Shown here one piece after another: positions 1 to 28,148 of a stretch of 51,154 nucleotides of DNA. The stretch's first letter is position 1. The number at the start of each line of letters is the position of its first letter. Source of the DNA: Deltaproteobacteria bacterium. Its GTDB lineage: Bacteria > Myxococcota > Myxococcia > Myxococcales > 40CM-4-68-19. Position numbers and translations under genes: made by a program. The notes beneath the pieces are model-generated. The model had not been told where the DNA came from and did not search any database. It saw only the letters and a program-made list of their open reading frames with translations. The stretch lies in NCBI GenBank assembly GCA_005879315.1, contig VBLC01000066.1, positions 1 to 51,154 of the forward strand. Reading direction: 5' to 3'.

Positions 1-216
1 GAGCTCGGAAAGACGCGGCTGCCGATGCCGGTGACGTCGATCGGCGGAGAGAAGGCGAACGGCGTTGCGCTTGGCGCGCAGATGAAGCTCATCTCGGCCA
101 ACCCGACGGTAGTGATCATCAAAGGCGCCGGGCATTGGATCATGGAGGAAAGTCCCGAAGAGACCCTGGCGGCCGTGATCCGCGCGCTCGAGCAGTCCGC
201 CGCCGCGCCGAAGTGA
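1..216 (+). CDS. alpha/beta hydrolase, C-terminal part (cut by window edge)
   Basis: The frame is open from base 1, so the gene begins left of the window; 71 codons are visible. The visible part has the last strand of an alpha/beta hydrolase (MPVTSIGGEKANG), followed about 30 residues later by GAGHWIMEESPEE, where the His (codon at 133) is the catalytic histidine of epoxide-hydrolase/haloalkane-dehalogenase-like hydrolases. The nucleophile and acid are outside the window. It reads toward the tannase cluster and could belong to it, but a ketopantoate reductase relic on the other strand lies between. The substrate cannot be told. Confidence 0.8.
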   Translation, partial: ELGKTRLPMPVTSIGGEKANGVALGAQMKLISANPTVVIIKGAGHWIMEESPEETLAAVIRALEQSAAAPK

Positions 217-224
217 GGTGACGA

Positions 225-559
225 TCAAGCTGGCGAAGTGCAACTGTCAGTGTTCGAGCTCGCGCAGGAGATCGTCGAGGCGCGCGGGATCCGGTTGAGT
301 CTGGCCCTTTCAATCCGATGAACGATTTCGGTCACCGCGCTGTTCATCGCGATTGGCTTTCCGATTTGCCTGCCCACCTGGGCCACATAACCCTTGATGA
401 AGTCGATCTCCCGATCAGGTCGAACTTGTCCCGGTATTCCTCGATCGCAGCGACATGAACCTCGGAAGCCACGGCCTCCCACGCCCGAGACCCGCAGGCC
501 GCCGCGCGAGTCGCAATCGTTCCGCCCAATGCGCCGATACCCACGATCAAGGTCCGCAT
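225..559 (-). pseudogene. ketopantoate reductase (PanE/ApbA-like) relic
   Basis: On the minus strand a start at 559 opens MRTLIVGIGALGGTIATRA, the dinucleotide-binding N-terminus of ketopantoate reductase-like proteins. After about 45 residues the match moves to another minus frame, around 415-420, with REIDFIKGYVAQVG and GKPIAMNSAVTEIVHRI, which is the family's C-terminal helix region; this runs to a stop at 225. A normal member has about 300 residues, whereas only about 110 codons' worth remain here. The middle is therefore deleted and the two ends are out of frame. It is a dead gene between a hydrolase and the tannase. The identification rests on motif recognition only. Confidence 0.65.
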
Positions 560-703
560 CCTCAGCTCCTCTTCGAACGGCCAGGCTCCCCTGGCAAGAT
601 CCTGCAATCGGCAAAGCAAGATCTCGAAAGACGCCGCGCTCGCATCCGCGTAGCGTGCGTCCAGAATCGCATTGACGATCCAGCTTCGAGATGAGGAGGA
701 TCC

Positions 704-2242
704 ATGCGTTGCGCGAAGATTGTGGTTGCGACAGCGTTCCTCGGTTTGCTCTGGGCCGCGAGGCCGGCGAACGCCGCAAGCTGCGACGGGCTGACAAGCC
801 TGGCCGTGTCGAGCACGACGATCACGTCAGCCGCGATGGTCGCTGCCGGCGGCGGATTCCCCGAGTATTGCAACGTCAAAGGCCATGTCGATACCGAGAT
901 CGCCTTTGAGCTGCGTCTTCCCACCAAGTGGAACGGCAAGTTCTACTTCACGAGCTTCGGTGGCCTCGACGGCGTGATGCCCGGCCCCGGAGCAGGACTG
1001 AAGCTCGGCTACGCCGAGGTCGCGACCAACACCGGCCACGCGAGCACGAATGGAACCGTGTACGACGGGAGCTGGGCCTATCACAATCTCGAGCGGCAGG
1101 TGAACTGGGCCTATCGCTCGACTCACGTCGTGGCGATGGCCGGAAAAACGATCACGACCGCCTACTATGGAGCGGCCCCGCGGCTTTCCTATTACGTCGG
1201 TTGCTCCGGCGGAGGCCGCCACGCGGCCATGTCGGCGCAGCTCTATCCCGATGATTTCGACGGCGTCGTCTCGGGCGATCCATTCCTCAGCCCGCCGGGA
1301 CAGGTCATCGCCTGGAACTGGGATGAGCAGACCCTCACAGCCGCGCCCATTCCGCCGGCCAAACTGAACGTGATCGCCAAAGCGGTCCTCGACGAGTGCG
1401 ATGCGAAGGACGGCGTCGTCGACGGCCTCATCAGTGATCCGCGCCGCTGCCGCTTCGACCCGGGCACGCTCGCATGCCCCGCCGGCGGCGACGGGTCGGG
1501 CTGCCTCACCACGGCACAGGTCGCGAGCTTGCGGAAGTTCTATGGCGGCCCGAGGAATTCGCGGGGCGAGCAGCTCTTCCCCGGCTGGGAGCCCGGTGTG
1601 GAGAACCTGGGATGGCCGCGCGCCCTCGTCAATACCGTGAACGGCGGGCCTGGGGAGCTGATGGTCCTGATCCCGGACAACTTCCTCAAGTATTTCGTGT
1701 TCGGTCCTGGCTACGATCCGCTTTCCTTCAACTTCGATCGCGACCCCGCAAAGCTCGCTCCTGACTTCGCTCTCTTCGACGTGAAGCCCGATCTCTCAGC
1801 GTATGCGGCCGCGGGCCACAAGATCGTCATGTACCACGGGTGGGCCGATCCCCGGCTCGTTCCGGTGCTCTCGATCCAGTTCCACGGCGCGGTCGCGCGC
1901 AATCTCGACGAGGAAACGCGGATCGACGATTTCTATCGCCTCTTCATGGTCCCGGGAATGCTCCACTGCGGCGGCGGGACGGGCCCTTCGAGCTTCGATG
2001 CGTTCGGCGCGCTGGTGAATTGGGTCGAGGGGGGCGTCGCTCCTGACCGAATCATCGGATCGCACCTGACGAACGGCGTGGCGGATCGAACGCGTCCGCT
2101 TTGCCCCCATCCGAAGGAAGCCGTCTATACCGGCAGCGGTAGCATCAACGACGCCGCGAACTTCGTCTGCCGCGTGCGGCACGTCCGCGACATGGTGAAC
2201 TCGGACTTCTATCGCAGGGAACGGGAAGAGGACGACGATTAG
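704..2242 (+). CDS. secreted tannase/feruloyl esterase family hydrolase (copy 1)
   Basis: A 512-residue serine esterase of the tannase family (PF07519), which hydrolyses esters of phenolic acids or related aromatic or hydroxy-acid esters. ATG 704 follows GAGGAGGA at 693-700. Residues 1-24 form a signal peptide ending ARPANA, so the enzyme is exported. The nucleophile is Ser168 in GCSGGG, next to Cys167; the acid is Asp382 in YHGWADP; the base is His421 in GMLHCGGG, next to Cys422. This is the family's CS-D-HC arrangement, where the two Cys bridge the catalytic residues. The segment CDAKDGVVDGLISDP resembles the family's calcium loop. The tail is strongly acidic (REREEDDD). It lies 27 bases before a secreted alpha/beta hydrolase, probably co-transcribed. 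The substrate is not determined. Confidence 0.92.
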   Translation: MRCAKIVVATAFLGLLWAARPANAASCDGLTSLAVSSTTITSAAMVAAGGGFPEYCNVKGHVDTEIAFELRLPTKWNGKFYFTSFGGLDGVMPGPGAGLKLGYAEVATNTGHASTNGTVYDGSWAYHNLERQVNWAYRSTHVVAMAGKTITTAYYGAAPRLSYYVGCSGGGRHAAMSAQLYPDDFDGVVSGDPFLSPPGQVIAWNWDEQTLTAAPIPPAKLNVIAKAVLDECDAKDGVVDGLISDPRRCRFDPGTLACPAGGDGSGCLTTAQVASLRKFYGGPRNSRGEQLFPGWEPGVENLGWPRALVNTVNGGPGELMVLIPDNFLKYFVFGPGYDPLSFNFDRDPAKLAPDFALFDVKPDLSAYAAAGHKIVMYHGWADPRLVPVLSIQFHGAVARNLDEETRIDDFYRLFMVPGMLHCGGGTGPSSFDAFGALVNWVEGGVAPDRIIGSHLTNGVADRTRPLCPHPKEAVYTGSGSINDAANFVCRVRHVRDMVNSDFYRREREEDDD

Positions 2243-2269
2243 ATCGATCGATCCAACGCGGAGGTCACT

Positions 2270-3469
2270 GTGAAACGCGCGAATTTCACCAGAATGGCGG
2301 CTGTCCTCGCTCTCGCTTTGGGAGCACCTGGCGCCCACGCCGACGGCCAGACCTGCGAGCAGGATGACGACGGCATCCTCTCCATCGACCACTACGTCAA
2401 CCACGTCTCCACCTTGCGCGCCACTGCCGGCCAGCACGTCCAGCTCTTCGTGCGCGAGCGCGTCCGGGGTAGCGCGGAGGACCTGGGCAAGAGCACCGAG
2501 GCGAACGGCAAGGCGGTGCTCTTCGTCCACGGCGGCACGTATCCCTCCGTGCCCGACTACGATCTCCGCTTCAAGGACTACGACTGGATGGCCTATCTGG
2601 CCGGCTCCGGATTCGACGTCTATTCGATGGACATCCAGGGTTATGGCTGGTCGACGCGGCCCTTCCCGATGGGCGATCCGTGCAACGTCAGCCCCGCCCA
2701 GCAATTGCTCATCAGCCCCTATCCGATCTCTCCGGGCGCGATCCCCTGTGCTGCGAGCCACCCGTTCGTGCTCGCGAGCACCCAATCCGACTGGGACGAG
2801 GTCGACCGCGTGGTGGACTTCGTCCGCGCCCGTACCGGACAGGACCGCATCAGTCTCATCGGCTGGTCGGGCGGCGGTCCGCGATTCGGTGGCTACGCGG
2901 GCCTGCATCCGGAGAAGGTCGATCGGGTGGTGCTGCTTGCGCCCGCTTACTTCCGCGCCGTCCCCGACAATCAGCCTCCTTCGCAACCCGCCGGCTTTCC
3001 CTTCACTGTCTCGACGCGCTTTCACGCCTTCCACGAGCGCTGGGATATCCAGGTGCATTGCGCCAACCAGTTCGACCCCGCGATCCGCGACGCGATCTGG
3101 GCGTCGAACATGAAGTTCGATCCGGTCGGGGCGACCTGGGGGCCGGGCATCGTCCGGGCACGCTCCATGACCTTCACCCAGTGGAATGCACACCTCGCCG
3201 CGAAGGTGCAGGCTCCCGTGCTCCTGCTTTCCGGCGAGCTCGATCAAGAGGTGAACCCGCAGTTCGTGCGCGACCTGTACGCCGACCTCGGGTCCGCGTC
3301 CAAGGTCTTCCTCAGCATCGAATGCGTTTCCCATTACGTTCCGTACGAGACGAATCACATGGTTCTGCTCAAATCATCCAAGGACTGGTTGCTCCATGGA
3401 TCGGTCATCGGGGTCAGCCGCGGGATGCTCCACGCGGATGCGGCCGGCCACATCCGGAAGGTCGAGTGA
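2270..3469 (+). CDS. secreted alpha/beta hydrolase
   Basis: A 399-residue exported alpha/beta-fold hydrolase. The GTG start at 2270 follows a GAGG at 2261-2264. A signal peptide covers residues 1 to about 24 (ending GAHA). FVHGG near residue 77 supplies the oxyanion region. The nucleophile is Ser200 in IGWSGGGPR. Asp325 in SGELDQEV is the likely acid. His363 (ETNHMVL) or His355 (VSHYV) is the likely base. It follows the first tannase by 27 bases, so the two secreted esterases probably act on the same material, one perhaps on the product of the other. The exact substrate cannot be assigned; an ester or lactone is most likely. Confidence 0.85.
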   Translation: MKRANFTRMAAVLALALGAPGAHADGQTCEQDDDGILSIDHYVNHVSTLRATAGQHVQLFVRERVRGSAEDLGKSTEANGKAVLFVHGGTYPSVPDYDLRFKDYDWMAYLAGSGFDVYSMDIQGYGWSTRPFPMGDPCNVSPAQQLLISPYPISPGAIPCAASHPFVLASTQSDWDEVDRVVDFVRARTGQDRISLIGWSGGGPRFGGYAGLHPEKVDRVVLLAPAYFRAVPDNQPPSQPAGFPFTVSTRFHAFHERWDIQVHCANQFDPAIRDAIWASNMKFDPVGATWGPGIVRARSMTFTQWNAHLAAKVQAPVLLLSGELDQEVNPQFVRDLYADLGSASKVFLSIECVSHYVPYETNHMVLLKSSKDWLLHGSVIGVSRGMLHADAAGHIRKVE

Positions 3470-3513
3470 AACCAGCCTAGCGCTGGTCCATTGGCGTTTG
3501 GCAGGCCAGAGCG

Positions 3514-4182
3514 ATGAAGCCGATCGCGACCAAATCCGTCCTTCCGGTCCGCGCCGCCGACGAGATCCGAGGCGCGATCCTGAGCGGCGCCCTCCTTCCC
3601 GGAGCGCGCATCAAGCAGGAGGAGCTCGCGGCGCGCCTCGGCGTGTCCCGCGAACCCGTGCGCCAGGCCTTGCTGATGCTCCAGCGCGAGGGCCTGGTCT
3701 TCACCGAGCCGGGTCGGACGGCCACCGTCGCCACCCTCGATCGGCGATTCATCGCCGACGTCTACGAGCTTCGCGAGGTCATCGAGGGCCTCGTGGCAGC
3801 CACCATGGCGAAGCTCTGCGCCCCCGATCTGACACACCTCGAGGAGATCGTCGCGCGCGGTCGCGAGGCCGTCCGGCTGAGGAGTTTTCGGCGGCTCATC
3901 GAGCTGGACATCGCCTTCCACTCGGCACTTTACGAGGCGGCGAACAACCGGGTGCTGATCGACGTCATGCGCGATCAGTGGAACCATATCCGGCGGGTGA
4001 TGGCGATGGTGCTCGGCGAGACCAGCTACCGCGATCGCGTCTGGGACGAGCACGCCGCCATTCTAGAGGCCATCCGATCCGGCAATCCTCGGCGGGCGCG
4101 CGCCGTCGCCGCTCACCACACGCGGGCCGCAAAGCTGTTCCTGCTCGGCTCGGTCGCATCCGAGGGGATTCCCTTTCTCTAG
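3514..4182 (+). CDS. GntR/FadR-family (FCD domain) transcriptional regulator
   Basis: A 222-residue cytoplasmic regulator. The N-terminal winged helix (about residues 10-75) carries ADEIRGAILSGALLPGARIK and the recognition region LGVSREPVRQALLMLQREG. The rest is an all-helical FCD ligand-binding domain with the typical DVYELREVIEGL opening and metal/ligand-type His and Asp positions (ELDIAFHSALYEAA, VWDEHAAILEAI). FCD regulators usually sense small carboxylic acids and repress neighbouring catabolic genes. It sits 44 bases after the secreted hydrolase, in the same direction, so control of this esterase island by an acid released from the esters is a reasonable inference. Confidence 0.93.
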   Translation: MKPIATKSVLPVRAADEIRGAILSGALLPGARIKQEELAARLGVSREPVRQALLMLQREGLVFTEPGRTATVATLDRRFIADVYELREVIEGLVAATMAKLCAPDLTHLEEIVARGREAVRLRSFRRLIELDIAFHSALYEAANNRVLIDVMRDQWNHIRRVMAMVLGETSYRDRVWDEHAAILEAIRSGNPRRARAVAAHHTRAAKLFLLGSVASEGIPFL

Positions 4183-4268
4183 AATCGCGCCGCTCCGTTT
4201 TTGCGACGCGGCGCGCATTGACGGCCCCTGGATCCTGGATCCAGATTGCGTGCTCCCTCGGAACCGCA

Positions 4269-5192
4269 ATGCGGCTCGGCTCGCCAACGATGTTCATCGA
4301 GACCCTCACCGGGCGGCCCCGTCCCGTCCCGGGCATGGGCAAGCTGTCGAGCGGCCATTTCTGGAGAGGGCTCCGGCTGGAAGGAATCTCGGTCGGCCCG
4401 GACGAGCTCGGCGAAGGGCATTTCACGCAGCACTTCATCGGTGTGATCGGCAGCGAGGTCCGCATCGAGAACTCGTGGACGGGCGGCCGTCGTTGGAGCC
4501 GGCAGTATTTTCCCGGCAACGTGGCCCTGCTTCCCGCGAGCGTGCCGTATGCCGCCCGATGGGAAGGCTTCAAGAGAGTGACCGGGCTCTTCCTCGATCC
4601 GGATCTTCTCTCCGCGACCAGCGGCGAGGCAACCGGCACTCAGATCGAGCTTCGTCCAGCCGTGGCTCCGCAAAACGACGCGCTCCTCGCCGATCTGGTG
4701 CTGACACTGCGCGGAGAGGTGCAAGCCGGATTTCCCGGAGGTGCGCTGTATGGCGAGTCGCTCGGTGTCGCCATTGCCGCGCATGTCGTTCGCTCCTATG
4801 CGGCCGCAACTTGCCGCGCGGCGGACCCGCGCGGGGGCCTTCCTTCCGACGACCTGCGCCGCATCGAGAAGTATGTCGAAGAGAACCTTGCCCGGAACCT
4901 TTCGCTCCACGATCTCTCCCAGCAGCTGGGCATGAACGTGTACTTCTTCGTCCGTTCGTTCAAGCGGAGCACCGGCGTGCCGCCGCATCAGTACGTGCTG
5001 AGAAGGCGCGTCGAGCGTGCGAAGGCGTTCCTGCTCGACGCTGGCAGCTCGATCGCCGACATCGCGCTCCGCTGCGGGTTTGCCACACAGAGCCATTTGA
5101 CCGCCACGTTCAGTCGCTTGACGAACCTGACGCCTGGTGAATACCGCCGCGCATTCGAACGAGCGCGCCGCGGCGAGTCGCGGTCCGCCTAG
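4269..5192 (+). CDS. AraC-family transcriptional regulator
   Basis: About 307 residues from ATG 4269; ATG 4290 (300 residues) is an equally possible start, as neither has a strong ribosome site. The N-terminal two thirds (to about residue 195) is a poorly conserved sensor domain. The C-terminal 100 residues are a double helix-turn-helix of the AraC type: RRIEKYVEENLARNLSLHDL, then LGMNVYFFVRSFKRSTGVPP, and the signature IADIALRCGFATQSHLTATF with LTPGEYRR. It is likely an activator of the following metallo-hydrolase/tannase genes or of the whole island. The open frame continues upstream for some 290 codons over the GntR gene, but that extension has no homology. Confidence 0.92.
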   Translation: MRLGSPTMFIETLTGRPRPVPGMGKLSSGHFWRGLRLEGISVGPDELGEGHFTQHFIGVIGSEVRIENSWTGGRRWSRQYFPGNVALLPASVPYAARWEGFKRVTGLFLDPDLLSATSGEATGTQIELRPAVAPQNDALLADLVLTLRGEVQAGFPGGALYGESLGVAIAAHVVRSYAAATCRAADPRGGLPSDDLRRIEKYVEENLARNLSLHDLSQQLGMNVYFFVRSFKRSTGVPPHQYVLRRRVERAKAFLLDAGSSIADIALRCGFATQSHLTATFSRLTNLTPGEYRRAFERARRGESRSA

Positions 5193-5243
5193 AGCACAAA
5201 CTCAAGACCCCTCAAAGCCCAACAACACAAGCGTAGGCGCCAA

Positions 5244-5258
5244 GCCGCCTTCGGCGGC
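5244..5258 (+). terminator. short GC hairpin after the AraC gene
   Basis: A six-base-pair all-GC stem (GCCGCC, loop TTC, GGCGGC) lies 51 bases after the AraC stop, in the 170-base gap before the metallo-hydrolase. It has no T-run, so it would be a weak terminator or attenuator. The rest of the gap is A-rich for this genome (5193-5235) and holds no gene. Confidence 0.25.
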
Positions 5259-5362
5259 CGGGGCTAGCGCAAGAATCCGACAAAGCGCGGACAAGATTCT
5301 GAAAGACACGCCCTCGGTCCACTCGATAGGTTCGCGTCCATTCCGCAAACCATGGAGTCGCC

Positions 5363-6526
5363 ATGAAAGCTCACCGCGCAGCGTTGACGGCGCTGGTCTT
5401 CGTCGTTTCATCGGCCGCACTCGCAAGGGACAGGGACCATCGAGCGGACCCGGCAGAGATCAAGGCCCGCCAGCACTTCTTCGGCGCGGAGAACGTCGAC
5501 CCGGTCACGGCGGCCGTGCGCAGGGACCGCGTGATCTTCTCGTGGTTCAGCAACACCTCGTTCGCGGTCGCGGCGGGGGGCCGGGTCTTTCTGCTCGACT
5601 CGTACATCGACCAGGAGGGCCGCGTGCCCACGACGGTGGACGAGATCGTCGCGCTCAGGCCGGAGGCGATCTTCATCGGCCACGGGCACTTCGATCACCT
5701 GGACTTCGGCGGTCCGGTGGCCGCCGCTGTCGGCGCCACGCTCGTGGCCTCGCCCGAAGCCTGCGATCAGGCGCAGCTCGACGCGCAGCGCGTCCTCGGC
5801 CCCACCGCCAAGGTGAACTGCCTGGGCGCGGTGACGCGCGGCTCTTCGCCGGGCGCGGAGATCAACTCGCTCGACGTGCTCCGCGGTGGCGTGTGCGTCA
5901 CGGCGTTCAAGCACATCCACTCCGCCGTGCTGCCGTCCGACCCGGACTATGCGCCGAACCCGATCGCTGTAGTGACGGACCCGCGCGACGCCACGCTCTT
6001 CCCGCCGCCCGCGCCCATCGTGCACGGCGGCTGCGGCGGCATCTGCGGGCTGACCAGCATCATGTATCAATTCACGGTCGGACACGGCGAGCACAAGTTC
6101 ACCTTCCTCTGGCACAACACCACCGGTCCGTACAAGGAGAAGGCGCCGCAGATCTTCGACATCGCGCGCAAGCTTCCCAAGACGGACGTCGAGCTGGGCG
6201 CCATCTTCAGCATCGGGTGGACCACCAACTACGAGCGCGACGCCGTGCTCTTCACGCGAGCGCTGCAGCCCAAGGTCTACGTGCCCACGCACCACGATCT
6301 CCTCTTCCTCAAGACGACGGCGCCTTACTGGAAGGCTGCCTATTACCGGCAGCTGAAGATCATCGGCGTCCCGGAGGCGGAGCAGCCGCTGGTGCGCTGG
6401 CTCTATGACCCGGAGGCGTACCTCAATTCGTCGATGTTGACCTTCGACATCAAGGACCACTTCTGGGCGAGCTCCCCAGAGGGACGGCCGGCGAGCGAGT
6501 GCGACTCGTCCGGCGATGAGGATTAG
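5363..6526 (+). CDS. secreted metallo-beta-lactamase-fold hydrolase (copy 1)
   Basis: A 387-residue exported MBL-fold protein, with a signal peptide of about 22 residues ending SSAALA. The metal motif is GHGHFDHLD, with His107, His109, Asp111 and His112, a complete H-x-H-x-D-H. Later histidines (PIVHGG, TVGHGEH, LWHNT, VPTHHD) could complete the second metal shell. A single substrate cannot be predicted; exported relatives include lactonases, esterases and beta-lactamases. It starts the second half of the esterase island and is followed after 51 bases by the second tannase. The protein ends in an acidic tail (DSSGDED), as do its neighbours. ATG 5363 is preceded by a GGAG six bases upstream. 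Confidence 0.88.
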   Translation: MKAHRAALTALVFVVSSAALARDRDHRADPAEIKARQHFFGAENVDPVTAAVRRDRVIFSWFSNTSFAVAAGGRVFLLDSYIDQEGRVPTTVDEIVALRPEAIFIGHGHFDHLDFGGPVAAAVGATLVASPEACDQAQLDAQRVLGPTAKVNCLGAVTRGSSPGAEINSLDVLRGGVCVTAFKHIHSAVLPSDPDYAPNPIAVVTDPRDATLFPPPAPIVHGGCGGICGLTSIMYQFTVGHGEHKFTFLWHNTTGPYKEKAPQIFDIARKLPKTDVELGAIFSIGWTTNYERDAVLFTRALQPKVYVPTHHDLLFLKTTAPYWKAAYYRQLKIIGVPEAEQPLVRWLYDPEAYLNSSMLTFDIKDHFWASSPEGRPASECDSSGDED

Positions 6527-6577
6527 CGGCCGCCAGGCAAGAAACGGCATTGACCTGCTTCGTTCAGGAGAATCCAA

Positions 6578-8152
6578 ATGAATCGACCCTTCGCATTCAC
6601 CGTGCTTTGTACAATCGCGCTGGCAACCGCGCTGAGCCCCTCGCGAGCTGAAGCGAACCAATCGTGCGAGGGCCTGGCCAAGCTCTCTCTCAAGAACGTG
6701 ACCATCACCTCCGCCGTGAGCGTCGCCGCATCCGCGACGCTTCCTGCCCATTGCCGGGTGTTCGGGATCGCGACGCCTACCATCGACTCCGCGATCACTT
6801 TCGAAGTCCTGCTGCCGGCGGCGTGGAATGGAAAGTACTTGCAGGCCGGCAATGGAGGTTACGGCGGGTCATTGGGAACCCCGATGGGCAACATGCTGGC
6901 CGCCTTGCAGCGAGGCTATGCCGCAGCGGGCACGGACATGGGCCACAGCGCCTCGGACCCAGTATGGGCGTTCGGACATCCTGAGCGAGTTGCCGACTGG
7001 GGTTACCGGGCGAACCACGTCACCGCCCAGACTGCGAAAGCGATCGTCAAGGCCTTCTACGGCGAGGGGCCGGAGCTCTCGTACTTCAGCGGCTGTTCCG
7101 ACGGTGGACACGAGGCGCTGATGGAAGCGCAGCGGTTCCCGGAAGAGTTCGACGGCATCATCGCCGGCGCGCCCGCGAACTTCTGGACCCATCAATCGAC
7201 GGCGTGGATCTGGGAGGGCGCTGCGGCGCTCTCGGATCCTGCGAGCGCCCTCTCCAGTGACAAGCTGAAGCTCGTCACCTCCGCCGCCGTCGCAGCTTGC
7301 GATGGAATCGATGGCCTGAACGACGGACTCATCGACGACCCGCGCAACTGCCGGTTCGATCCGGCGAGCCTGCTCTGCGGAGGCGGCGATCCTACGAAGT
7401 GCCTCACCGCCCCGCAGGTCGCGGCGGTCAAGAAGATCTATGCCGGTCCCCGGAACCCGCGCACGGGTGCGCAGATCTATCCCGGCCTGGAGCGGGGCAG
7501 CGAATACGCCGCGATCGCCAACGACACATTGTCGGTCCTGGTCGGAAGCTGGTCGCCGCTGGTGTCGGGGCCCGTGCCGTTCCTGGGTGACCTCTTCTTC
7601 AAGCAGATGGTCTTCAACAACTTGAGCTGGGATTTCCGCACGCTCGACTACGATGGCAACGTGGCCTTCGCGGACACGAAGATGGCGCCGATCATCAACT
7701 CGACGAACCCTGACCTGAGCACCTTCAGGGAGCTGGGTGGCAAGCTGATCATGTATCACGGCTGGAACGACCCGCTGGTCAATCCGCGCAACAGCATCAA
7801 CTACTACGAGAACGTCATCGCCGCCTTGCATCGCGAGGACGACGAAGGTGAAGGAGCTGGGAATGCCGCGAAGGACACGCAGAAGTTCTTGCGGCTCTTC
7901 ATGGCGCCCGGAATGACCCACTGCTTGCTGGGCCCCGGCCCCAACGTCTTCGATACTCTCACTGCGCTCGAGAACTGGGTCGAGCAGGGGAGGGCGCCGG
8001 AAAGGCTCATCGCATCGGGAGGCGCCGTAGCGGGCCGGACGCGGCCGCTCTGCCCGTTTCCCAAGGTGGCCCGTCACATCGGCCACGGCAGCATCAACGA
8101 CGCGGCGAACTTCGCGTGCGTCAAGCCGGAGCACGGATCGCACGACGACTGA
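6578..8152 (+). CDS. secreted tannase/feruloyl esterase family hydrolase (copy 2)
   Basis: A 524-residue paralogue of the tannase-family protein at 704-2242, with the same layout. A signal peptide ends near residue 26 (SRAEA). The nucleophile is Ser174 in SGCSDGG, next to Cys173; the acid is Asp398 in YHGWNDP; His448 is in GMTHCLLG, next to Cys449. The loop CDGIDGLNDGLIDDPRNC matches the family's calcium-binding loop. Both copies share the C-terminal signature GSINDAANF. ATG 6578 follows AGGAGA. The sequences differ enough in the lid region (residues 180-350) that the two enzymes probably have different substrates. The stop overlaps the start of a tiny frame (TGATG at 8150-8154). The tail is HGSHDD. 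Confidence 0.92.
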   Translation: MNRPFAFTVLCTIALATALSPSRAEANQSCEGLAKLSLKNVTITSAVSVAASATLPAHCRVFGIATPTIDSAITFEVLLPAAWNGKYLQAGNGGYGGSLGTPMGNMLAALQRGYAAAGTDMGHSASDPVWAFGHPERVADWGYRANHVTAQTAKAIVKAFYGEGPELSYFSGCSDGGHEALMEAQRFPEEFDGIIAGAPANFWTHQSTAWIWEGAAALSDPASALSSDKLKLVTSAAVAACDGIDGLNDGLIDDPRNCRFDPASLLCGGGDPTKCLTAPQVAAVKKIYAGPRNPRTGAQIYPGLERGSEYAAIANDTLSVLVGSWSPLVSGPVPFLGDLFFKQMVFNNLSWDFRTLDYDGNVAFADTKMAPIINSTNPDLSTFRELGGKLIMYHGWNDPLVNPRNSINYYENVIAALHREDDEGEGAGNAAKDTQKFLRLFMAPGMTHCLLGPGPNVFDTLTALENWVEQGRAPERLIASGGAVAGRTRPLCPFPKVARHIGHGSINDAANFACVKPEHGSHDD

Positions 8153-8256
8153 TGGTCTTTCCTGAAGACTTCGATGTCGAGCCTGGCGAGCTCGAGCTGA
8201 CGAGCGGAAGCAGGCTGACCGGCGATCGCGACGACTCTGACGACGATGAGCGATGA
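8152..8256 (+). CDS. possible 34-residue acidic small protein
   Basis: An ATG at 8152 overlaps the tannase stop (TGATG) and opens 34 codons ending at TGA 8254-8256. The product is strongly acidic, with the end RDDSDDDER, like the tails of the neighbouring secreted enzymes. It has no signal peptide and no family I recognise. The overlap suggests translational re-initiation, but at this length the frame may be chance. It fills most of the 142-base gap before the second metallo-hydrolase. Confidence 0.3.
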   Translation: MVFPEDFDVEPGELELTSGSRLTGDRDDSDDDER

Positions 8257-8294
8257 ACTGTTGGTAGTTTGGCAGGCAATTTCGGGGTGAAACC

Positions 8295-9494
8295 ATGCGC
8301 AGAATCTCCTTCGTTTTCGCTCTCGCACTTTGCTTCTCCACTTTGCCCTTGCACGCGGAGAGGGACGACGACGGCGACGCGGAGCAGAAGAGCGTCGAGC
8401 TGACGTGGATGTCGATCGCCAACTGGTACTTCAAGGCCGGCTCATTGAAGATGGTGATGGACGGCTACCTCACGCGCGTCCCCTCCAGCGTCTTCGTGCC
8501 CTCGAAGCAGTTCCCCGCGGACCAGTTCGCCTTCACGAATGCGACCTGGCCGTCCAACGTCACCGACGTGATGCGGGTCCGCTTTGCGCTCGGCGCGGAC
8601 AATCTCGATTACCTGCTCGCCGGGCATAGCCACTTCGATCACACCTATGACACGGCCATCTGGGCTGCGCTGACGGGCGCGCAGATCATCGGAGGCCAGT
8701 CGACCTGCTATCAGGCCGAGTCCCAGGGCTGGCCAAAGAGCCAGTGCACGGTGGTGAGCGGCAGCTGGGTCACGGGCCATGGCGAGCGTCTCCAGCTTGC
8801 CCCTGACGTCACGCTGCGGGTGGTGCGGTTCAACCACAGCGGCACTGACAAGAACCCCATCCAGCATTTCGGACGCGAGCTCAGCGGCCCGCCCATCCCC
8901 GATCCGGCGACCGGCGGGTTCAAGGCAGGCGTCGGGGAGGACTTTCCCAATGGAGGCGGCGGGCGCGCGTTCCTCTTCACCGTCGGCCACGGGCGGCGCC
9001 GCGTCAGCTTCTTCGTCAACAACTCTGCCAGTCCGTTCGACCTGGACCAGCCCGTCACTGTGAACGGAGAGAGCTTCGGATCTCCTCTCGAGAACCTCAG
9101 CGCCGCGATGCGAGACGCGGAGCTGACCAGCGTCGACGCCTGGATCGGCACGGGCGGGTTGGCGGTGGCGCAGCTGATCGTCCCCGTGATCCACCCGAAA
9201 ACATACATTCCGAATCACTGGGACGGCTTGTTCAACCCGTTCTGGCCTGGTCTGCCCTTCCCCTTCAAAGACGCAAACCTTTCCGCATTCCTGGATCGCA
9301 ATGGCATCCAGTTCTTGCCTCAGCATCAGTACTTCGACGGCTATCGCGTCGAGGCGACGGGGGTGACGCGGCTGATGAACCACAAGCTGAAGCAGAGGCT
9401 GGGCTTCAGCGACGTGCAGCCCTTCACCGCAGCGAGCGTCGCTACCGCACGGGAGGTAAGCGCGGCGATGGGACCCGAGGATTGCGACCAGTAG
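8295..9494 (+). CDS. secreted metallo-beta-lactamase-fold hydrolase (copy 2)
   Basis: A 399-residue exported MBL-fold protein with a signal peptide of about 22 residues (ending LPLHA) and a complete metal motif, AGHSHFDHT (His111, His113, Asp115, His116). It differs from the MBL protein at 5363 in length, in the spacing after the motif and in the C-terminal part (PKTYIPNHWDGL), so it is a distant relative rather than a recent duplicate. The mature N-terminus is acidic (ERDDDGDAE). It is the last plus-strand gene of the island and lies 38 bases after the tiny acidic frame. Its substrate is unknown; its pairing with tannase-type esterases suggests an ester or lactone intermediate. Confidence 0.87.
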   Translation: MRRISFVFALALCFSTLPLHAERDDDGDAEQKSVELTWMSIANWYFKAGSLKMVMDGYLTRVPSSVFVPSKQFPADQFAFTNATWPSNVTDVMRVRFALGADNLDYLLAGHSHFDHTYDTAIWAALTGAQIIGGQSTCYQAESQGWPKSQCTVVSGSWVTGHGERLQLAPDVTLRVVRFNHSGTDKNPIQHFGRELSGPPIPDPATGGFKAGVGEDFPNGGGGRAFLFTVGHGRRRVSFFVNNSASPFDLDQPVTVNGESFGSPLENLSAAMRDAELTSVDAWIGTGGLAVAQLIVPVIHPKTYIPNHWDGLFNPFWPGLPFPFKDANLSAFLDRNGIQFLPQHQYFDGYRVEATGVTRLMNHKLKQRLGFSDVQPFTAASVATAREVSAAMGPEDCDQ

Positions 9495-9668
9495 TGAGAG
9501 ATCGTCTGTGACGCAGGCGGAGCAGGGTTTCCTGTCGAAAGATGATCCCGAGATCGCCTGGCAGGCGCGCTCCGCCCGCCGGAAGCTGATGCCCACCGCG
9601 GTGGAGCTGATCCGCTCGGTCTCCCCCAGGCAGCGGCCGCGCTGCGCCTGAACGCGCCGCTCGGATTC

Positions 9669-10082
9669 TCAGCCGCCGAGCAGCTCGTCGTAACCCTGCC
9701 CGCGCATCTCCAACAGGCAGAGCCCGTTGCCGAAGGGGTCCGCCAGATTGGCCAGACGGCCCCACTTCTTCGGCTGCACCTCGCGGTCGAGCGCCGCGCC
9801 AGCCGCTAGCGCGCGGCGCACGGCCGCGTCCAGATCCTCCACGACAAAGTCGATGTGCACCGGTGTCCAGTGGCGGCGGTAGTCCCGCACCGCGGTCGCG
9901 CCAGGGCTGGGAGACGAGCCGGCGGGCTCGGCGAGCAGATCGATCGGTGACGACGCGCCGAGAAGCTCCGCCCAGCCGCGGCCCAGGCGGCGACCCAGGG
10001 TCAGACCCAGGGCCTCGCGGTAGAAGGCGACACCCTTCTCCAAGTCGTCCACATCGATGCAAACGCGAATCTGCAGGCTCAT
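9669..10082 (-). CDS. VOC-family (glyoxalase/bleomycin-resistance fold) protein
   Basis: A 137-residue protein with the two beta-alpha-beta-beta-beta halves of the vicinal-oxygen-chelate fold. The first half opens IRVCIDVDDLEKGVAFYREA; the second has PVHIDFVVEDLDAAVRRALA and ends LADPFGNGLCLLEM. His (VHIDF) and Glu (LLEM) are usual metal ligands, so it may bind a metal. It is the second gene of a two-gene minus operon: the upstream VOC gene stops 7 bases before its start. Function beyond the fold (detoxification, dioxygenase or binding) is not predictable. Confidence 0.88.
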   Translation of the reverse strand: MSLQIRVCIDVDDLEKGVAFYREALGLTLGRRLGRGWAELLGASSPIDLLAEPAGSSPSPGATAVRDYRRHWTPVHIDFVVEDLDAAVRRALAAGAALDREVQPKKWGRLANLADPFGNGLCLLEMRGQGYDELLGG

Positions 10083-10089
10083 CGGATGG

Positions 10090-10524
10090 CTATTTCTTCT
10101 GCGCCTTCATGCGGCGCTCCATCTCCTCGGGCGAGACGTCCTCGATGTGCGTGCCCATCGACCACTGGTTGCCCCACCGGTCGATCACGGTGGCGACCCG
10201 GTCGCCATAGAATTGGTTCGCCGGCTCGCGCTTCGCCTGCCCGCCCGCGGCCACCGCCTTCTTGAAGGTCGAGTCGACGTCGGGGACGTAGAGATAGGCG
10301 CCGATGCGCGTCGGCGCAACCTCGGGGTTTCCGTCCGCAAGCATCACCATCGAATCGCCGATCTGTACCTCGGCGTGACCAATCTTTCCGCCCGGCGCGG
10401 GGAAGCGGAACTTTTCCTCGGCGCCGAACGCGTTCTTGAGGAATTGGATGAAGTCGGCTGCGCCCTCGACGACGAAATACGGAGTGAACGTGCGGTAGCC
10501 CTCGGGAATCGGCTTGACGGCCAT
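10090..10524 (-). CDS. VOC-family protein, PhnB-like
   Basis: A 144-residue VOC protein of the PhnB-like type: EGYRTFTPYFVVEGAADFIQ, then FLKNAFGAEE, GHAEVQIGDSMVMLAD, and a C-terminal DRWGNQWSMGTHIEDVSPEE. The start at 10524 is fixed by an excellent ribosome site (AAGGAGG, plus-strand 10531-10537, seven bases away); the frame is open 27 codons further upstream without homology. It is first in the minus-strand pair with the VOC gene at 9669. It diverges from the RND pump across a 115-base gap that must hold both promoters. The ligand is unknown. Confidence 0.88.
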   Translation of the reverse strand: MAVKPIPEGYRTFTPYFVVEGAADFIQFLKNAFGAEEKFRFPAPGGKIGHAEVQIGDSMVMLADGNPEVAPTRIGAYLYVPDVDSTFKKAVAAGGQAKREPANQFYGDRVATVIDRWGNQWSMGTHIEDVSPEEMERRMKAQKK

Positions 10525-10639
10525 GTGTCTCCTCCTTTGCAGGTGCGGTCTACAGCTTGAGCGCTGCGCCGTCGAGCACCGGCGGGCAGGCGCTTGCCCG
10601 TGCATCGCCCGCCGCTCTGCGGCATCCTAATCCGACCGT

Positions 10640-13600
10640 ATGTGGATCGTCCGTCTCGCGCTGCGCCGCCCCTATACCATCGCCGTCGCTTGCGCGCTGA
10701 TCTTCATCTTCGGCTGGCTGAGCATCAGCAAGATGAAGACCGACATCCTGCCGGCCATCGACATCCCGGTGGTGATCGTGGTCTGGAACTACCCGGGCCT
10801 CTCCGCCGAGGACATGGAGCGCCGCGTCGTCTTCATCAGCGAGCGCGCCTACTCCACCACCGTGAGCGGCATCTCCCGCATCGACTCGCAGTCGATGACC
10901 GGCCTGGGCATCCTCAAGGTCTGGTTCGAGCCGGGCAGCGACATCGGCGGGGCCATCGCGCAGATCTCCTCGGTCTCCTCCGCCGCCAGCCGGGTCATGC
11001 CGCCCGGCATCACTCCACCGGCCATCGTCCGTTTCAACGCCAGCAACGTGCCGGTCGCGCAGCTCACCGTCGCCAGCAAGACGCTGAGCGAGGAGCAGCT
11101 CTTCGACTACGGCCTCAACTTCATCCGCCTGCGCCTCTTCACCATCTCTGGCCTGGCCACGCCCGCGCCTTTCGGCGGCAAGACGCGACAGATCATGGTG
11201 GACATCGACCCTGCCCGGGTGGCGCAGAAAGGGCTTTCTCCCAACGACGTGGTGCAGGCAGTCTTGAACAGCAACGTGCTGGTGCCGGCGGGCTCGGCGC
11301 AGATCGGCGACCGCCAGTACGACGTCAAGCTCAACTCCAGCCCCGTGAGCGTCGCCGCCTTCAACGACATGCCGGTCAAGGCGCAGAACGGCGCCACCAT
11401 CGTCCTCGGCGACGTCGCCCGAGTCCACGACGGCTTCGCGGTGCAGGAAAATGTCGTTCGCCTCAACGGCCGCCGCGCCACCTACCTGGCCATTCTCAAG
11501 AAAGCGGACGCCAGCACTCTCGCCGTGGTCGAGGGCGCCCGCGAGCAGATCCCCATCATCCAGCAGGCCGCGCCCGAAGGAATGGAGTTGAAGCTCGACT
11601 TCGATCAGTCGATCTTCGTCCGCGCGGCCATCGTCAACGTGCTGCACGAAGCGGTCATCGCCTCCATCCTCGTCTCGCTGATGATCCTCTTCTTCCTCGG
11701 CAGCTGGCGGGGGGCGGTCATCGTCGGCACCAGCATTCCGCTCGCCATCCTGGTGGGTCTGGTCGGACTGTTCTTGACCGGCAACACCTTGAACCTCATG
11801 ACCATGGGCGGCCTGGCGCTGGCCATCGGCATGCTGGTCGACGACGCCACCGTGGCCATCGAGAGCATCCACCGCAACCGGCACCTGGGAAAGGCGCTCA
11901 CACCCGCCATCCTCGACGGCTCGGAGCAGATCGCGGTGCCGGCGCTGGCCGCGACGCTGACCATCTGCATCGTCTTCTTTCCCGTCGTCCTGCTCGAGGG
12001 TCCGGCGCGCTTCCTCTTCTCTCCCTTGGCGCTGGGCGTGGTGGTCTCGATGATCGCCTCCTACATCCTCTCGCGGACGCTGGTTCCGATGCTGGCGCGC
12101 CTTCTCATGGAGAAGGAGGATCTCCACTACGCGGGCGAGAGCTTCGGCGCGCGCTTCAACCGCTGGCGCGACGGCGCCTTCGGCCGCTTCCAGGAGGCGT
12201 ACGGTCGCGTGCTTCAGACGGTGCTGCAGCACCGTTCCATGGTGCTGGGCGCGGCCGGGCTCATCTTGCTATTCACGGCCGCGCTGCCGTTCGTGGTGGG
12301 CCTCGACTTCTTCCCCAACGTCGACGCCGGCCAGATGCGCTTGCACTTCCGCGCGCCCATCGGCACGCGGCTGGAGGAGACCGAGCGGCTGGTGGCGCGG
12401 CTCGAGCAGCGCTTGCAGGACATCATCCCGCCGAGCGATCTCGCCACCATCAACTCCAACATCGGCATGCCCACTTCCTACAACCTGGCCTTCGTGCAGA
12501 CCGACAACACCGGCAGCCAGGACGCCGACATCCTCGTCGCGCTCCAGGCGGGCCACGCGCCCACCGAGCAGTACATGGAGAAGATCCGGCGCGAGCTGCC
12601 CGACGAGTTCCCCGGCAGCTCCCTCTACTTCCAGCCCGCCGACATCGTCAGCCAGGTGCTCAACTTCGGGCTCTCCGCTCCCATCGACGTCCAGATCGAA
12701 GGACCCGACGTGGAGCAGAGCTACGCGCTCGCGCGCAATCTGGCGAGCCGCATCCGCCTGGTCCCCGGCGCCTCCGACGTGCGCATTCCACAAGTCCTGG
12801 CGCATCCGGCGCTGGCGGTGGACGTCGATCGCCGGCTGGCAGCGCACATCGGCGTCACCGAGCGCGACGTGGCCAACAATCTCCTCGTCTCGCTCAGCTC
12901 CAGCACGCTGGTGGCGCCCTCGTTCTGGATCAATCCGAGGAACAACGTGAACTATCCGGTGGTGGTGCAGACGCCGCTCACCAAGGTGGATTCGATTTCC
13001 TCCCTCTTGGGTACGCCGCTCGGCCGCGGGGCGCAGCTCGTCGCCTCCTCCACGCCGGGAGACTCGATCGCCGGCGGCGCTTCCTACCTGGGCGCGGTGG
13101 CCAGGCTGCGGCCGGACACAGGCCTCTCGATGATCAACCACGTGGCGGTGCAGCGGGTGGTCGATGTGCAGGCCAGCGCCAGCGGCCGCGACCTGGGCAG
13201 CGTGACCATCGGAATCGAGAAGGCGATCGATTCCCTGGGCAAGCTCCCCAAGGCCACGCGCGTCCATGTCCGCGGGCAGAGCGAGAGCATGTTCGCCGCC
13301 TTCGGCAGGCTGGGCCTGGGCCTGGTGCTGGCGATTGTCCTCGTCTACCTGCTGCTGGTGGTCCTCTTCCAGTCGTTCCTCGATCCCTTCATCATCCTCG
13401 TCGCCGTGCCCGGCGCGCTCATCGGAATCCTCTGGATGCTGGCGCTCACCGGCACGACCTTGAACGTCGAGTCGTTCATGGGAGCGATCATGGCGGTTGG
13501 CATCGCCACTTCCAACAGCATCCTCCTGGTCAGCGCCGCCAACGACGCGCGCGTGCAGCAGAACCTGGGCGTGCTCGAGGCCGTCATCGCCGCCGGCAAG

Positions 13601-13858
13601 ACGCGCTTGCGCCCGGTGCTCATGACGGCGCTGGCCATGCTCCTCGGCATGGTCCCGATGGCGCTGGCGCTGGGAGAGGGCGGCGAGCAGAACGCGCCGC
13701 TCGGACGCGCGGTCATCGGCGGACTTCTGGTCGCCACCTTCGTCACTCTTCTCGTGGTCCCCGCCGTCTACACGCTCCTGCGCCGCGCAATGCCGCGCGC
13801 ACACCAGCTGGACGAGAAGTTCGCGGCGGAGAGCCGCATGGAGCCTTCGCATGGCTGA
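10640..13858 (+). CDS. RND-family efflux permease (AcrB/MdtB-like)
   Basis: A 1,072-residue inner-membrane proton-driven exporter, full length for the hydrophobe/amphiphile RND family. TM1 lies at residues 9-30 (PYTIAVACALIFIFGW). Two large periplasmic loops separate the TM blocks. The proton-relay aspartates are Asp401-Asp402 in GMLVDDATVAIE. The second half repeats the layout, with TM segments around LGLVLAIVLVYLLLVVLF and the GAIMAVGIATSNSILLV region. The next gene, its membrane-fusion adaptor, overlaps it by eight bases. No outer-membrane channel gene is nearby, so it must borrow one. The order pump-then-adaptor is the reverse of acrAB. Substrates are unknown. Confidence 0.94.
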   Translation: MWIVRLALRRPYTIAVACALIFIFGWLSISKMKTDILPAIDIPVVIVVWNYPGLSAEDMERRVVFISERAYSTTVSGISRIDSQSMTGLGILKVWFEPGSDIGGAIAQISSVSSAASRVMPPGITPPAIVRFNASNVPVAQLTVASKTLSEEQLFDYGLNFIRLRLFTISGLATPAPFGGKTRQIMVDIDPARVAQKGLSPNDVVQAVLNSNVLVPAGSAQIGDRQYDVKLNSSPVSVAAFNDMPVKAQNGATIVLGDVARVHDGFAVQENVVRLNGRRATYLAILKKADASTLAVVEGAREQIPIIQQAAPEGMELKLDFDQSIFVRAAIVNVLHEAVIASILVSLMILFFLGSWRGAVIVGTSIPLAILVGLVGLFLTGNTLNLMTMGGLALAIGMLVDDATVAIESIHRNRHLGKALTPAILDGSEQIAVPALAATLTICIVFFPVVLLEGPARFLFSPLALGVVVSMIASYILSRTLVPMLARLLMEKEDLHYAGESFGARFNRWRDGAFGRFQEAYGRVLQTVLQHRSMVLGAAGLILLFTAALPFVVGLDFFPNVDAGQMRLHFRAPIGTRLEETERLVARLEQRLQDIIPPSDLATINSNIGMPTSYNLAFVQTDNTGSQDADILVALQAGHAPTEQYMEKIRRELPDEFPGSSLYFQPADIVSQVLNFGLSAPIDVQIEGPDVEQSYALARNLASRIRLVPGASDVRIPQVLAHPALAVDVDRRLAAHIGVTERDVANNLLVSLSSSTLVAPSFWINPRNNVNYPVVVQTPLTKVDSISSLLGTPLGRGAQLVASSTPGDSIAGGASYLGAVARLRPDTGLSMINHVAVQRVVDVQASASGRDLGSVTIGIEKAIDSLGKLPKATRVHVRGQSESMFAAFGRLGLGLVLAIVLVYLLLVVLFQSFLDPFIILVAVPGALIGILWMLALTGTTLNVESFMGAIMAVGIATSNSILLVSAANDARVQQNLGVLEAVIAAGKTRLRPVLMTALAMLLGMVPMALALGEGGEQNAPLGRAVIGGLLVATFVTLLVVPAVYTLLRRAMPRAHQLDEKFAAESRMEPSHG

Positions 13859-14966
13859 GAACAACAAGCGGCTGGTGGCCGCCGGCAGCGCCATCCTCGT
13901 GCTGGCCGCCGCGGCCGGCACCGCCGCGCTCTTCCTCCGCGAGCACAATGCGCAGGCGCGGCAGGCGGACATCTTGCAGAAGGAGCTGGCCCAGGGGCCG
14001 ACGGTCCGCGCGGCGCGAGTGGAGATGGCCGCCGCCGACCGCGTGGTTTCGCTGCCGGCGGAAGTTCGCGCCGAGATGCACGCCACGCTCTACGCCAAGG
14101 TGAGCGGCTACGTGAAAGAAGTGACCGTCGACAAGGGCGACCGCGTGAGCAAGGGTCAGGTGGTGGCGGTGCTGGAGTCGCCCGACCTGGACGAGCAGCT
14201 CCGCTCGGCCGAAGCCGAGCTCTCCTTGCGCAAGCAGCAGCTGGCGCGCGCGCTGCGGCTGGTTGGGTCCGGCTACGTCTCGCACGATCAGCGCGAGCAG
14301 CTCGAAGAGGCGGTCAAGGTGGCGCAGGCCAACGTGGTCCGCGCGCGCGTGCAGAAGGACTACCAGTTCCTCCGCGCGCCCTTCGATGGCACGGTGACGG
14401 CGCGCTATGCGGATCCGGGCGCGCTCCTTCCCGCCGCGACCGGCAGCACTTCCAGCGCGCAGCCGCTCCTCGAGATCGCCCAGGTCGATCGGCTTCGCCT
14501 GGCGCTGCAGCTCGGCCAGGACGACGCCTCGCGGGTGCACACGGGAGATGCGGTCACGCTGCAGCTCGCGCCCGATCAGCCGGCGTTCCAGGCGCGCGTC
14601 TCGCGAATCGCGGAGAGCCTCGATCCGCGCACCAGGACCATGCTTTGCGAGATCGATCTGCCCCATCCGCCGCGCGGCCTTTATCCCGGCGCCTTCGTCG
14701 AGACGACGCTGGCCTTGCGCGGCGCGCCTCGGCCGCTGGTGCCCACCGAGGCGCTGGTCGGACAGTCGGGACAGCTCTTCGTCGCGCTCATCGAGGAGAA
14801 CAAGGTCCACTTCCAGCACGTCAAGCTCGGCATCGACGACGGTGCCCGCGTCGAAGTGCTCGACGGCCTTCGCGGCGGCGAGCTGGTGGCGCTCAACCTC
14901 GCGCCCGACGTCGCCGACGGCAGCTCGGTGCGAATCCGCGACGAGAGACCGAAGACCGCGCGGTAG
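13851..14966 (+). CDS. RND efflux periplasmic adaptor (membrane fusion protein)
   Basis: A 371-residue HlyD/AcrA-type adaptor. A single N-terminal membrane anchor (residues 10-29) is followed by a barrel-sandwich/lipoyl half ([20 protein letters not shown]), a short coiled-coil hairpin (about residues 115-165, [20 protein letters not shown]), the second lipoyl half ([20 protein letters not shown]), a beta-barrel domain and a membrane-proximal domain. The start overlaps the pump gene by eight bases, so the two proteins are made together. The coiled coil is short, as in adaptors for heavy-metal or small-molecule pumps. A 56-base gap separates it from the helicase gene. Confidence 0.93.
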
Positions 14967-24042: not shown

Positions 24043-25086
24043 GTGGTAACCCGGTCGACGATCTACCAAGTGGCAAGACGCTGCGGCGTGTCCACCGCCA
24101 CGGTCTCGCGGGTAATGCACGACGGCACCGGGTTCTCGCCGCCCACCCGCAAGCGCGTGCTCGCGGCAGCCGCCGCCATGGGCTGGGTTCCGAGTGGCCC
24201 GGCGCGCGGCCTCGCCTTCCGGAAGACCGGGATCGTCGGCCTGCTCTTCCCCGACCTGGCGTCCTTCAGCGAGTCCGAAGAGGAATCTCCTCTCTTCATC
24301 GACCAGGTGATCCGGGGCGCGGAGCGGGCCGCGGCCGCCGCCGGCGTCGCGGTGCTGATCGCGGCCACCCGCGGGGCCGGCCGGAAGCTGGCCCGCTCCG
24401 TCGTCGGGCAGGTCGATGGCTTGGTGGTTCTGGCTCGCAGCCTGCCGGTCAAGGATATCCAGATATTTTCGCGCAGCGTGCCGATCGTGGTGCTGGCGGA
24501 CCGATTGAACGGGTCCAGGCTGGACTACGTGGGGGCCGACAACCGCGGCGGCATGCGCGAGCTGACCGCGCACGTCCTGACGGTGCACAGGTTCACCCGC
24601 CTCGCCTTCGTCGGCGGCCCGGCGCGCTCCCCCGATTCCCAGGAGCGATTCGCCGGATTCCGCATGGCGATGCGAGCGGCCGGGCTTTCCGTTCCCGGCC
24701 GACCCGCAGCAGACGGCGGCTTCACCGAGGCTGGCGGCGCCCGGGCGATGCGCGCGCTGCTGGCCAGCGGGAAGCCGCCGCAGGCGGTCCTCTTCGGCAA
24801 CGACGAGATGGCGGTCGGCGGTCTCTCCGTCCTGCGCGCCGCCGGGGTGCGGGTCCCGTCCGGCATCGCGGTCACCGGTTTCGACGACATCGCTCTTTCG
24901 CGGCACGTGCAACCGTCGCTCACCACCGTCAAGCAGCCGATGCGCGACCTCGGCGGGCAGGCCGTGCGCGTTCTGCTCGCCCGGGTGGCCGAGCCGGCTT
25001 CCCGGCGCCAGTCGTTGGTGTTGCCCACGCAGTTGGTCGTGCGGCGCAGTTGCGGGTGCACTACCCGGCGCGGAATGGCGGCGTAG
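24043..25086 (+). CDS. LacI-family transcriptional repressor of the glucan operon
   Basis: 347 residues. The N-terminal helix-turn-helix (about residues 6-27, TIYQVARRCGVSTATVSRVM) is followed by a hinge and a periplasmic-binding-like effector domain with GLLFPD, FVGG, FGNDEMAVG and GFDDIALSRHVQPSLTTVKQ. GTG 24043 is the likely start, with AGGAG at 24026-24030 about twelve bases away. The protein is the first gene of the operon and lies directly behind two palindromic operators, so it most probably represses itself and everything downstream until a glucan-derived sugar binds. TonB receptor translation begins 49 bases after its stop. Confidence 0.94.
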   Translation: MVTRSTIYQVARRCGVSTATVSRVMHDGTGFSPPTRKRVLAAAAAMGWVPSGPARGLAFRKTGIVGLLFPDLASFSESEEESPLFIDQVIRGAERAAAAAGVAVLIAATRGAGRKLARSVVGQVDGLVVLARSLPVKDIQIFSRSVPIVVLADRLNGSRLDYVGADNRGGMRELTAHVLTVHRFTRLAFVGGPARSPDSQERFAGFRMAMRAAGLSVPGRPAADGGFTEAGGARAMRALLASGKPPQAVLFGNDEMAVGGLSVLRAAGVRVPSGIAVTGFDDIALSRHVQPSLTTVKQPMRDLGGQAVRVLLARVAEPASRRQSLVLPTQLVVRRSCGCTTRRGMAA

Positions 25087-28132: not shown

Positions 28133-28148
28133 TCGACGCATCCAACCG

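Follow-up and report, generated by a model that had tools for sequence, protein, structure and literature searches.

Gene organization of the island

The window analyzed here is a stretch of 51,154 nucleotides (GenBank assembly GCA_005879315.1, contig VBLC01000066.1, positions 1 to 51,154) from a Deltaproteobacteria bacterium of the order Myxococcales. At 704-9494 it carries an island of seven plus-strand genes in the order TAN1-ABH-GntR-AraC-MBL1-TAN2-MBL2, in which two tannase-family proteins, one alpha/beta hydrolase (ABH) and two proteins of the metallo-beta-lactamase (MBL) fold are accompanied by two transcriptional regulators. The open reading frames lie at the places given in a preliminary description of this DNA, and Pfam matches and motifs agree with the row of hydrolases and regulators given there:

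704-2242, plus strand: TAN1, predicted exported tannase/feruloyl-esterase family protein (512 aa; PF07519, 350.4 bits)
2270-3469, plus strand: ABH, predicted exported alpha/beta hydrolase (399 aa; GTG start; PF00561, 59.1 bits)
3514-4182, plus strand: GntR/FCD-type transcriptional regulator (222 aa; PF07729, 95.0 bits; PF00392, 59.4 bits)
4290-5192, plus strand: AraC-type transcriptional regulator (300 aa; PF12833 (HTH_18), 79.5 bits)
5363-6526, plus strand: MBL1, predicted exported MBL-fold hydrolase (387 aa; HxHxDH at 107-112; AlphaFold2 model)
6578-8152, plus strand: TAN2, predicted exported tannase/feruloyl-esterase family protein (524 aa; PF07519, 442.8 bits)
8295-9494, plus strand: MBL2, predicted exported MBL-like hydrolase (399 aa; HxHxDH at 111-116; homologous to MBL1)

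Pfam families were assigned to 5 of the 7 proteins (TAN1, TAN2, ABH and the GntR/FCD and AraC regulators). The intergenic gaps, in island order, are 27, 44, 107, 170, 51 and 142 bases. No terminator-like site was found on the plus strand in 1-10700, where 2 sites, both on the minus strand, were detected against 6.3 expected from shuffles; a promoter scan gave chance level only. The genes may be co-transcribed, and the island probably consists of two parts, TAN1-ABH-GntR and AraC-MBL1-TAN2-MBL2.

The title of the preliminary description announced six exported hydrolases. Five were counted; a sixth alpha/beta hydrolase is present only as an end of 71 residues at 1-213, truncated by the contig edge (PF12697, 17.9 bits, below the cut-off). 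At 347-619, a short minus-strand open reading frame looks, on inspection by eye, like the beginning of a ketopantoate reductase; it has no Pfam match and is perhaps a gene remnant.

Export signals and catalytic motifs

All five enzymes begin with a short positive stretch followed by a hydrophobic core and a plausible signal-peptidase site, which is of the AxA type in 4 of 5 (found by script) and LHA in MBL2 (read by eye). The maximum 10-residue Kyte-Doolittle mean is 2.38-2.77 in these enzymes versus 1.63 and 0.16 in the two regulators. From such signal-peptide-like starts, judged by N-terminal composition, hydropathy and cleavage-site motif, TAN1, ABH, MBL1, TAN2 and MBL2 are predicted to be exported.

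Judged by their motifs, the catalytic sites are complete in all five. The tannase motifs GCSGGG/GCSDGG, GWADP/GWNDP and HC are present in TAN1 and TAN2 (in TAN1, Ser of GCSGGG at 166, Asp of GWADP at 379 and HC at 421), ABH contains GWSGG at 198, GELD at 322 and NHM at 362, and the metal motifs GHGHFDH and GHSHFDH are intact in the two MBL proteins. The proposed combination of exported ester-type hydrolases with GntR/FCD and AraC regulators is thus borne out by families, export-like starts and motifs.

Tannase-family proteins and the alpha/beta hydrolase

Both tannases score far above the PF07519 cut-off of 29.8 bits and are 40% identical to each other. They are the only clear PF07519 genes in the 4.43 Mb host genome assembly (125 contigs, 97.6% complete), in which a third match, at 21.5 bits, lies below the cut-off. 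According to PMC7568301, this family includes tannases, feruloyl esterases and MHETase; HMMER alignments place MHETase and fungal FaeB-type enzymes as the closest solved relatives of TAN1 and TAN2. TAN1 and TAN2 share with MHETase and AoFaeB the fold family, the CS-D-HC active site and predicted export. The catalytic Ser, Asp and His are accompanied by a Cys pair flanking Ser and His, like the Cys224/Cys529 pair of MHETase described in that source. A stretch of the form ACDxxDGxxDG is also present and resembles the known calcium site of PF07519 enzymes.

The island tannases differ from MHETase at S131, E226 and F495, which are tied to activity on MHET in PMC7568301. The corresponding positions, read by eye from the HMMER alignments, are Gly/Asp/Val in TAN2 and Gly/Gly/Leu in TAN1, and no PETase/terephthalate or gallate cluster surrounds the genes. 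An MHETase-like function is rejected on these residues; on their sequences, TAN1 and TAN2 are PF07519 family members of unassigned substrate and not MHETases.

A tree of 42 rows, built by a quick method, gives TAN2 a tannase on contig C473 of genome G003 as its sister, inside a starred clade of 18 rows consisting mostly of sequences from other orders. TAN1 clusters with tannases of genomes G005 and G003 at a lower support of 88, and the tannases of family f4, which belongs to the same order as the window, form a separate group.

ABH has no close solved relative. Its matches to the PETase model (17.9 bits, cut-off 28) and to the polyhydroxyalkanoate depolymerase model (33.9 bits, cut-off 300) could hint at extracellular degradation of a polyhydroxyalkanoate or a synthetic polyester, as could one plasmid relative of the tannases that adjoins a 3-hydroxybutyrate oligomer hydrolase and TctC genes. 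Both matches are far under their cut-offs, the island holds neither a PETase nor a polyhydroxyalkanoate depolymerase, and with the MHETase residues missing from TAN1 and TAN2 the arrangement of a PETase beside an MHETase is not found; a polyester pathway appears extremely unlikely. On two Streptomyces plasmid loci with ABH relatives (2 of 88 records), no annotated tannase was present.

MBL-fold proteins

MBL1 and MBL2 have no Pfam match, and their NCBIfam matches, the best being "metal-dependent hydrolase", are below cut-off. They are distant homologues of each other (22% identity, E 5e-9). The AlphaFold2 model of MBL1 (pLDDT 86.7) finds its best solved folds in UPF0173 (3x2y, Z 21.0), 3bv6 (Z 20.8) and Igni18 (Z 20.6), with NAPE-PLD also among them and Z scores ranging from 19.4 to 21.0. 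PMC7846560 relates 3bv6 and 2wym to UlaG. MBL1 therefore models as a UPF0173/UlaG/NAPE-PLD-like metallo-hydrolase, alike in predicted fold, HxHxDH and downstream His; it differs from this branch in its length of about 390 aa with a signal-peptide-like start and in its exported-esterase neighbours.

For Igni18, PMC7846560 describes metal-dependent lactonase, lipase, phosphodiesterase and phospholipase activities, and regards the copper-driven lactonase as a likely artefact. By fold kinship to UlaG and Igni18, ester or lactone activity of the MBL proteins is possible, and in view of the activities described for Igni18 such a putative role is plausible. Motifs for lactonase activity are described in PMC3219644.

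Among 36 aligned rows of the MBL1 family, HxHxDH is kept in 34, and PF00753 is matched at E 0.001 or better by 22 of the 36 relatives and not by MBL1 itself. At the likely next metal-ligand position, Asn occurs in 15 rows (N252 of the window included), Asp in 20 and a gap in 1; MBL1 reads WHNTTG where many relatives in the UPF0173/UlaG branch read WHDSxG. The Asn252 column may correspond to Asp144 in the di-metal ligand set of Igni18 (ligands from PMC7846560), a correspondence that does not come from a structural alignment. Esterase-family neighbours accompany 8 of the 15 Asn rows, window included, versus 3 of the 20 Asp rows, these rows being related to each other. Second, tandem MBL1-type copies in Rhizobacter (L109, 6737-7975) and Roseateles (L167, 11123-12379) have lost HxHxDH (KxAxGH), and a TctC gene follows each of them.

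The MBL2 model is of low confidence (pLDDT 64.2) and too weak for a fold assignment, although MBL folds head its list. A beta-lactamase function of the MBL proteins finds no support, B3 enzymes ranking under UPF0173/UlaG for both. It might still be asked whether the exported esterases and MBL proteins, with the adjoining RND transporter and adaptor at 10640-14966, counter lactone or ester toxins of competitors. B3 beta-lactamases do turn up farther down among the folds listed for MBL2, and one B3 model matches MBL2 at 15.8 bits, below cut-off. Two opposite-strand VOC-like genes (Pfam was run on one) nevertheless separate the island from the pump, the top-ranking folds belong to UPF0173/UlaG/NAPE-PLD and not to B3 lactamases, and tannase-type partners do not point to resistance. 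Detoxification is thus considered highly unlikely.

MBL and tannase-type genes in related genomes

In a set of 146 related genomes, including that of the window, PF07519 exceeds the cut-off in 21. Two other genomes of the window's genus also have a tannase beside an MBL gene. One of these, G003 (JANXXR010000083.1, JANXXR010000199.1), carries AraC-tannase-MBL on contig C473 (L061) and MBL-tannase at the end of contig C32 (L215); the AraC regulator of the island is 41% identical to the one beside a G003 tannase. In the other, G001, an MBL2 orthologue (66-67%) lies 94 bases from a convergent tannase. That tannase (L054, 11025-12480, contig C91) is split over two frames near 11.8 kb and may be a pseudogene or an assembly error.

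In G007 (JANYKT010000140.1), which like G003 is a "Deltaproteobacteria bacterium" metagenome-assembled genome (MAG) of the window's family, relatives of MBL1 and MBL2 stand side by side and adjoin DUF6351, Abhydrolase_10 and SGNH genes; this genome has no PF07519 match. G005 has an MBL1 relative with tannases elsewhere in the genome. The window genome itself holds a second exported-esterase/MBL pair on contig C87 (L060, 7279-10460), Abhydrolase_10 followed by a Lactamase_B_2-type MBL.

Linkage across phyla

Genome contigs were scanned with four MBL1-type proteins, giving 102 relatives and 80 loci kept. Nocardia accounts for 46; the others come from relatives of the window and from Betaproteobacteria (Cupriavidus and others), Rokubacteria, Alphaproteobacteria, other Actinobacteria and one Moraxellaceae. 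At distances of up to 10 kb, or as far as the contig reaches where it ends sooner, a PF07519-type gene is found at 2/80 loci, a DUF6351-type gene at 8/80 and either at 9/80. DUF6351 (PF19878) is called a tannase-like family of unknown function by Pfam.

Whole genomes were searched for 35 of the 80 loci (30 non-Nocardia, 5 Nocardia), with PF07519 above cut-off in 21/35, PF19878 in 17/35 and the MBL1 family in 35/35 by construction. An MBL1-family gene lies 5 kb or less from PF19878 in 7/35 genomes against 0.23 expected (P about 9e-11), and from either PF19878 or PF07519 in 8/35 against 0.57 (P about 3e-9). Expected counts come from a uniform-placement model that takes genomes as independent, and distances were read by eye. 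The link of MBL1 is strong with DUF6351 and marginal with PF07519 outside the relatives of the window.

The DUF6351 and MBL loci of Cupriavidus, Rokubacteria, Actinobacteria, Betaproteobacteria and G007 resemble the island in having an exported MBL1-family gene 5 kb or less from a tannase-type esterase; the window differs in carrying two PF07519 enzymes instead of DUF6351, plus MBL2. In a Betaproteobacteria MAG (L151), the order tannase-MBL1-DUF6351 occurs on a single strand, and no more than 20 bases separate the open frames. Gene clustering of 38 chosen loci and the window gave Abhydrolase_10 (6 loci), TctC (5) and SGNH (4) as other recurring neighbour families. Schlegelella koreensis (G165, contig C1, about 616-826 kb) has many tannase and DUF6351 matches in some 200 kb, with 14 and 12 in the genome.

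Two unrelated exported-enzyme operons without a common substrate might lie side by side in the window by chance. Separate regulators divide the row, the seven-gene order is not conserved, and both MBL proteins are rare and patchy (the MBL1 family in 5/299 genomes from the family that includes Cupriavidus sp. AU9028, MBL2 in 3/195 genomes of the window's phylum). Against this, tannase-type and MBL genes are repeatedly neighbours, within the genus and in other phyla, more often than chance would give, and the island keeps to a single strand with short gaps, making fortuitous neighbourhood unlikely.

The preliminary description paired each tannase with an MBL-fold or alpha/beta hydrolase and would have given up the idea if the same MBL proteins occurred without tannases in most genomes. 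The 2/80 count for PF07519 within about 10 kb tells largely against an MBL-tannase pair. The pairing survives as a loose genetic linkage, by the 8/35 count, and not as an obligate one, which is rejected on the 80 loci, on G007 and on the plasmid tannase loci below.

Plasmid contexts and aromatic-catabolism genes sought in the host

Plasmid records contained 9 relatives of MBL1 (3 read), 3 of MBL2 (2 read) and 164 of TAN2 (8 read). On a Bradyrhizobium plasmid (L242, 8950-10227), the MBL1 relative is flanked by the gspM-side and gspD-side genes of a type II secretion operon that encloses it, and it may be a secreted substrate of that system. An Agrobacterium plasmid carries its MBL1 relative within a tripartite tricarboxylate transporter/amidohydrolase cluster; the third MBL1 record read bears no annotation. 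Two MBL2 relatives (27-28%) on Comamonadaceae plasmids are near TctC genes. These settings (TctC, amidohydrolases, type II secretion) fit exported nutrient enzymes, as expected. A profile search found no MBL1/MBL2-type gene within 6 kb of the plasmid tannase loci (0/8).

Two of these 8 loci carry gallate or protocatechuate genes, one gallate dioxygenase/ligK and the other ligAB. They bring up an aromatic-ester pathway in which tannases release gallic, ferulic or terephthalic acid and MBL proteins open ring-cleavage lactones, an idea also favoured by the range of PF07519 (tannases, feruloyl esterases and MHETase, in PMC7568301) and by a PF01494 FAD monooxygenase at 19554-21104 (268 bits), a possible aromatic hydroxylase. 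In the host genome, PF00775 (intradiol dioxygenase) and TctC are both absent, in a search that did not extend to type I extradiol or CoA-dependent routes, and its one LigB-type gene was judged by eye to be YgiD-like; for these reasons it offers no help to an ester-then-lactone scheme for aromatic or polyester compounds. Ring-cleavage lactones form in the cytoplasm, whereas MBL1 and MBL2 look exported. With MHETase S131, E226 and F495 replaced as well, the aromatic or terephthalate substrate suggested earlier is not upheld, and such a pathway is regarded as distinctly improbable.

Other genes of the window

Farther downstream, 24043-41110 contains a LacI regulator, a TonB/OMP-type outer-membrane protein, an ABC sugar-type transporter, an SOGP/GH94-type phosphorylase, a GH1 glucosidase and a GDSL lipase, a gene content resembling that of a cluster for the use of beta-glucan or glucosides.

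Discussion

We read the locus as an exported ester-degrading island for nutrient acquisition, of unassigned substrate, in which known enzyme families are combined in a new way; the probability of this reading is put at about 0.5. The enzymes would first be exported by Sec. Tannase-type serine esterases would then split the acyl esters of an organic compound rich in such bonds. On the pieces set free, ABH and the metal-dependent MBL proteins would break additional ester or lactone bonds, while the two regulators, GntR/FCD and AraC, may respond to the freed acids.

Several observations weigh against this reading. The 46 Nocardia loci of the MBL1 family have no tannase-type neighbour, and the genomes searched in whole were chosen by hand. 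The linkage to PF07519 by itself is weak (2/35 genomes at 5 kb or less, 0.35 expected, P 0.04), and other neighbours of MBL1 are diverse, including M20 peptidase, SBP56 and solute-binding proteins. The complete seven-gene order was not found in any other genome examined. Finally, the host has neither TctC nor obvious ring-cleavage genes, leaving the use of released acids unexplained.

The arrangement was called non-textbook, and rightly so as far as the literature searched is concerned: open-licence publications on DUF6351 and on tannases with MBL proteins or tripartite transporters describe no such island. What is new is the combination, together with an exported MBL partner whose conservation is loose; no enzyme fold is new. 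As a tentative and somewhat doubtful extension, a family of exported UlaG/UPF0173-like metallo-hydrolases might act across phyla as partner to tannase-type serine esterases (DUF6351, PF07519, Abhydrolase_10, SGNH). The two would make up a modular system outside the cytoplasm that joins the chemistry of a serine esterase to that of a metal-dependent lactone or ester hydrolase. The window would hold an enlarged form of it, with both kinds in duplicate and with the MBL subgroup that has Asn in place of the likely metal-ligand Asp.

Enzymes of the tannase family and of DUF6351 are numerous and their substrates mostly unassigned, and a recurring metal-dependent partner would help to find what they degrade. 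The recurring esterase/MBL pair would also supply a two-enzyme set for screens of ester and lactone breakdown. For the exported MBL family, with relatives on plasmids that carry the annotation "hypothetical protein", it provides a first genomic context.

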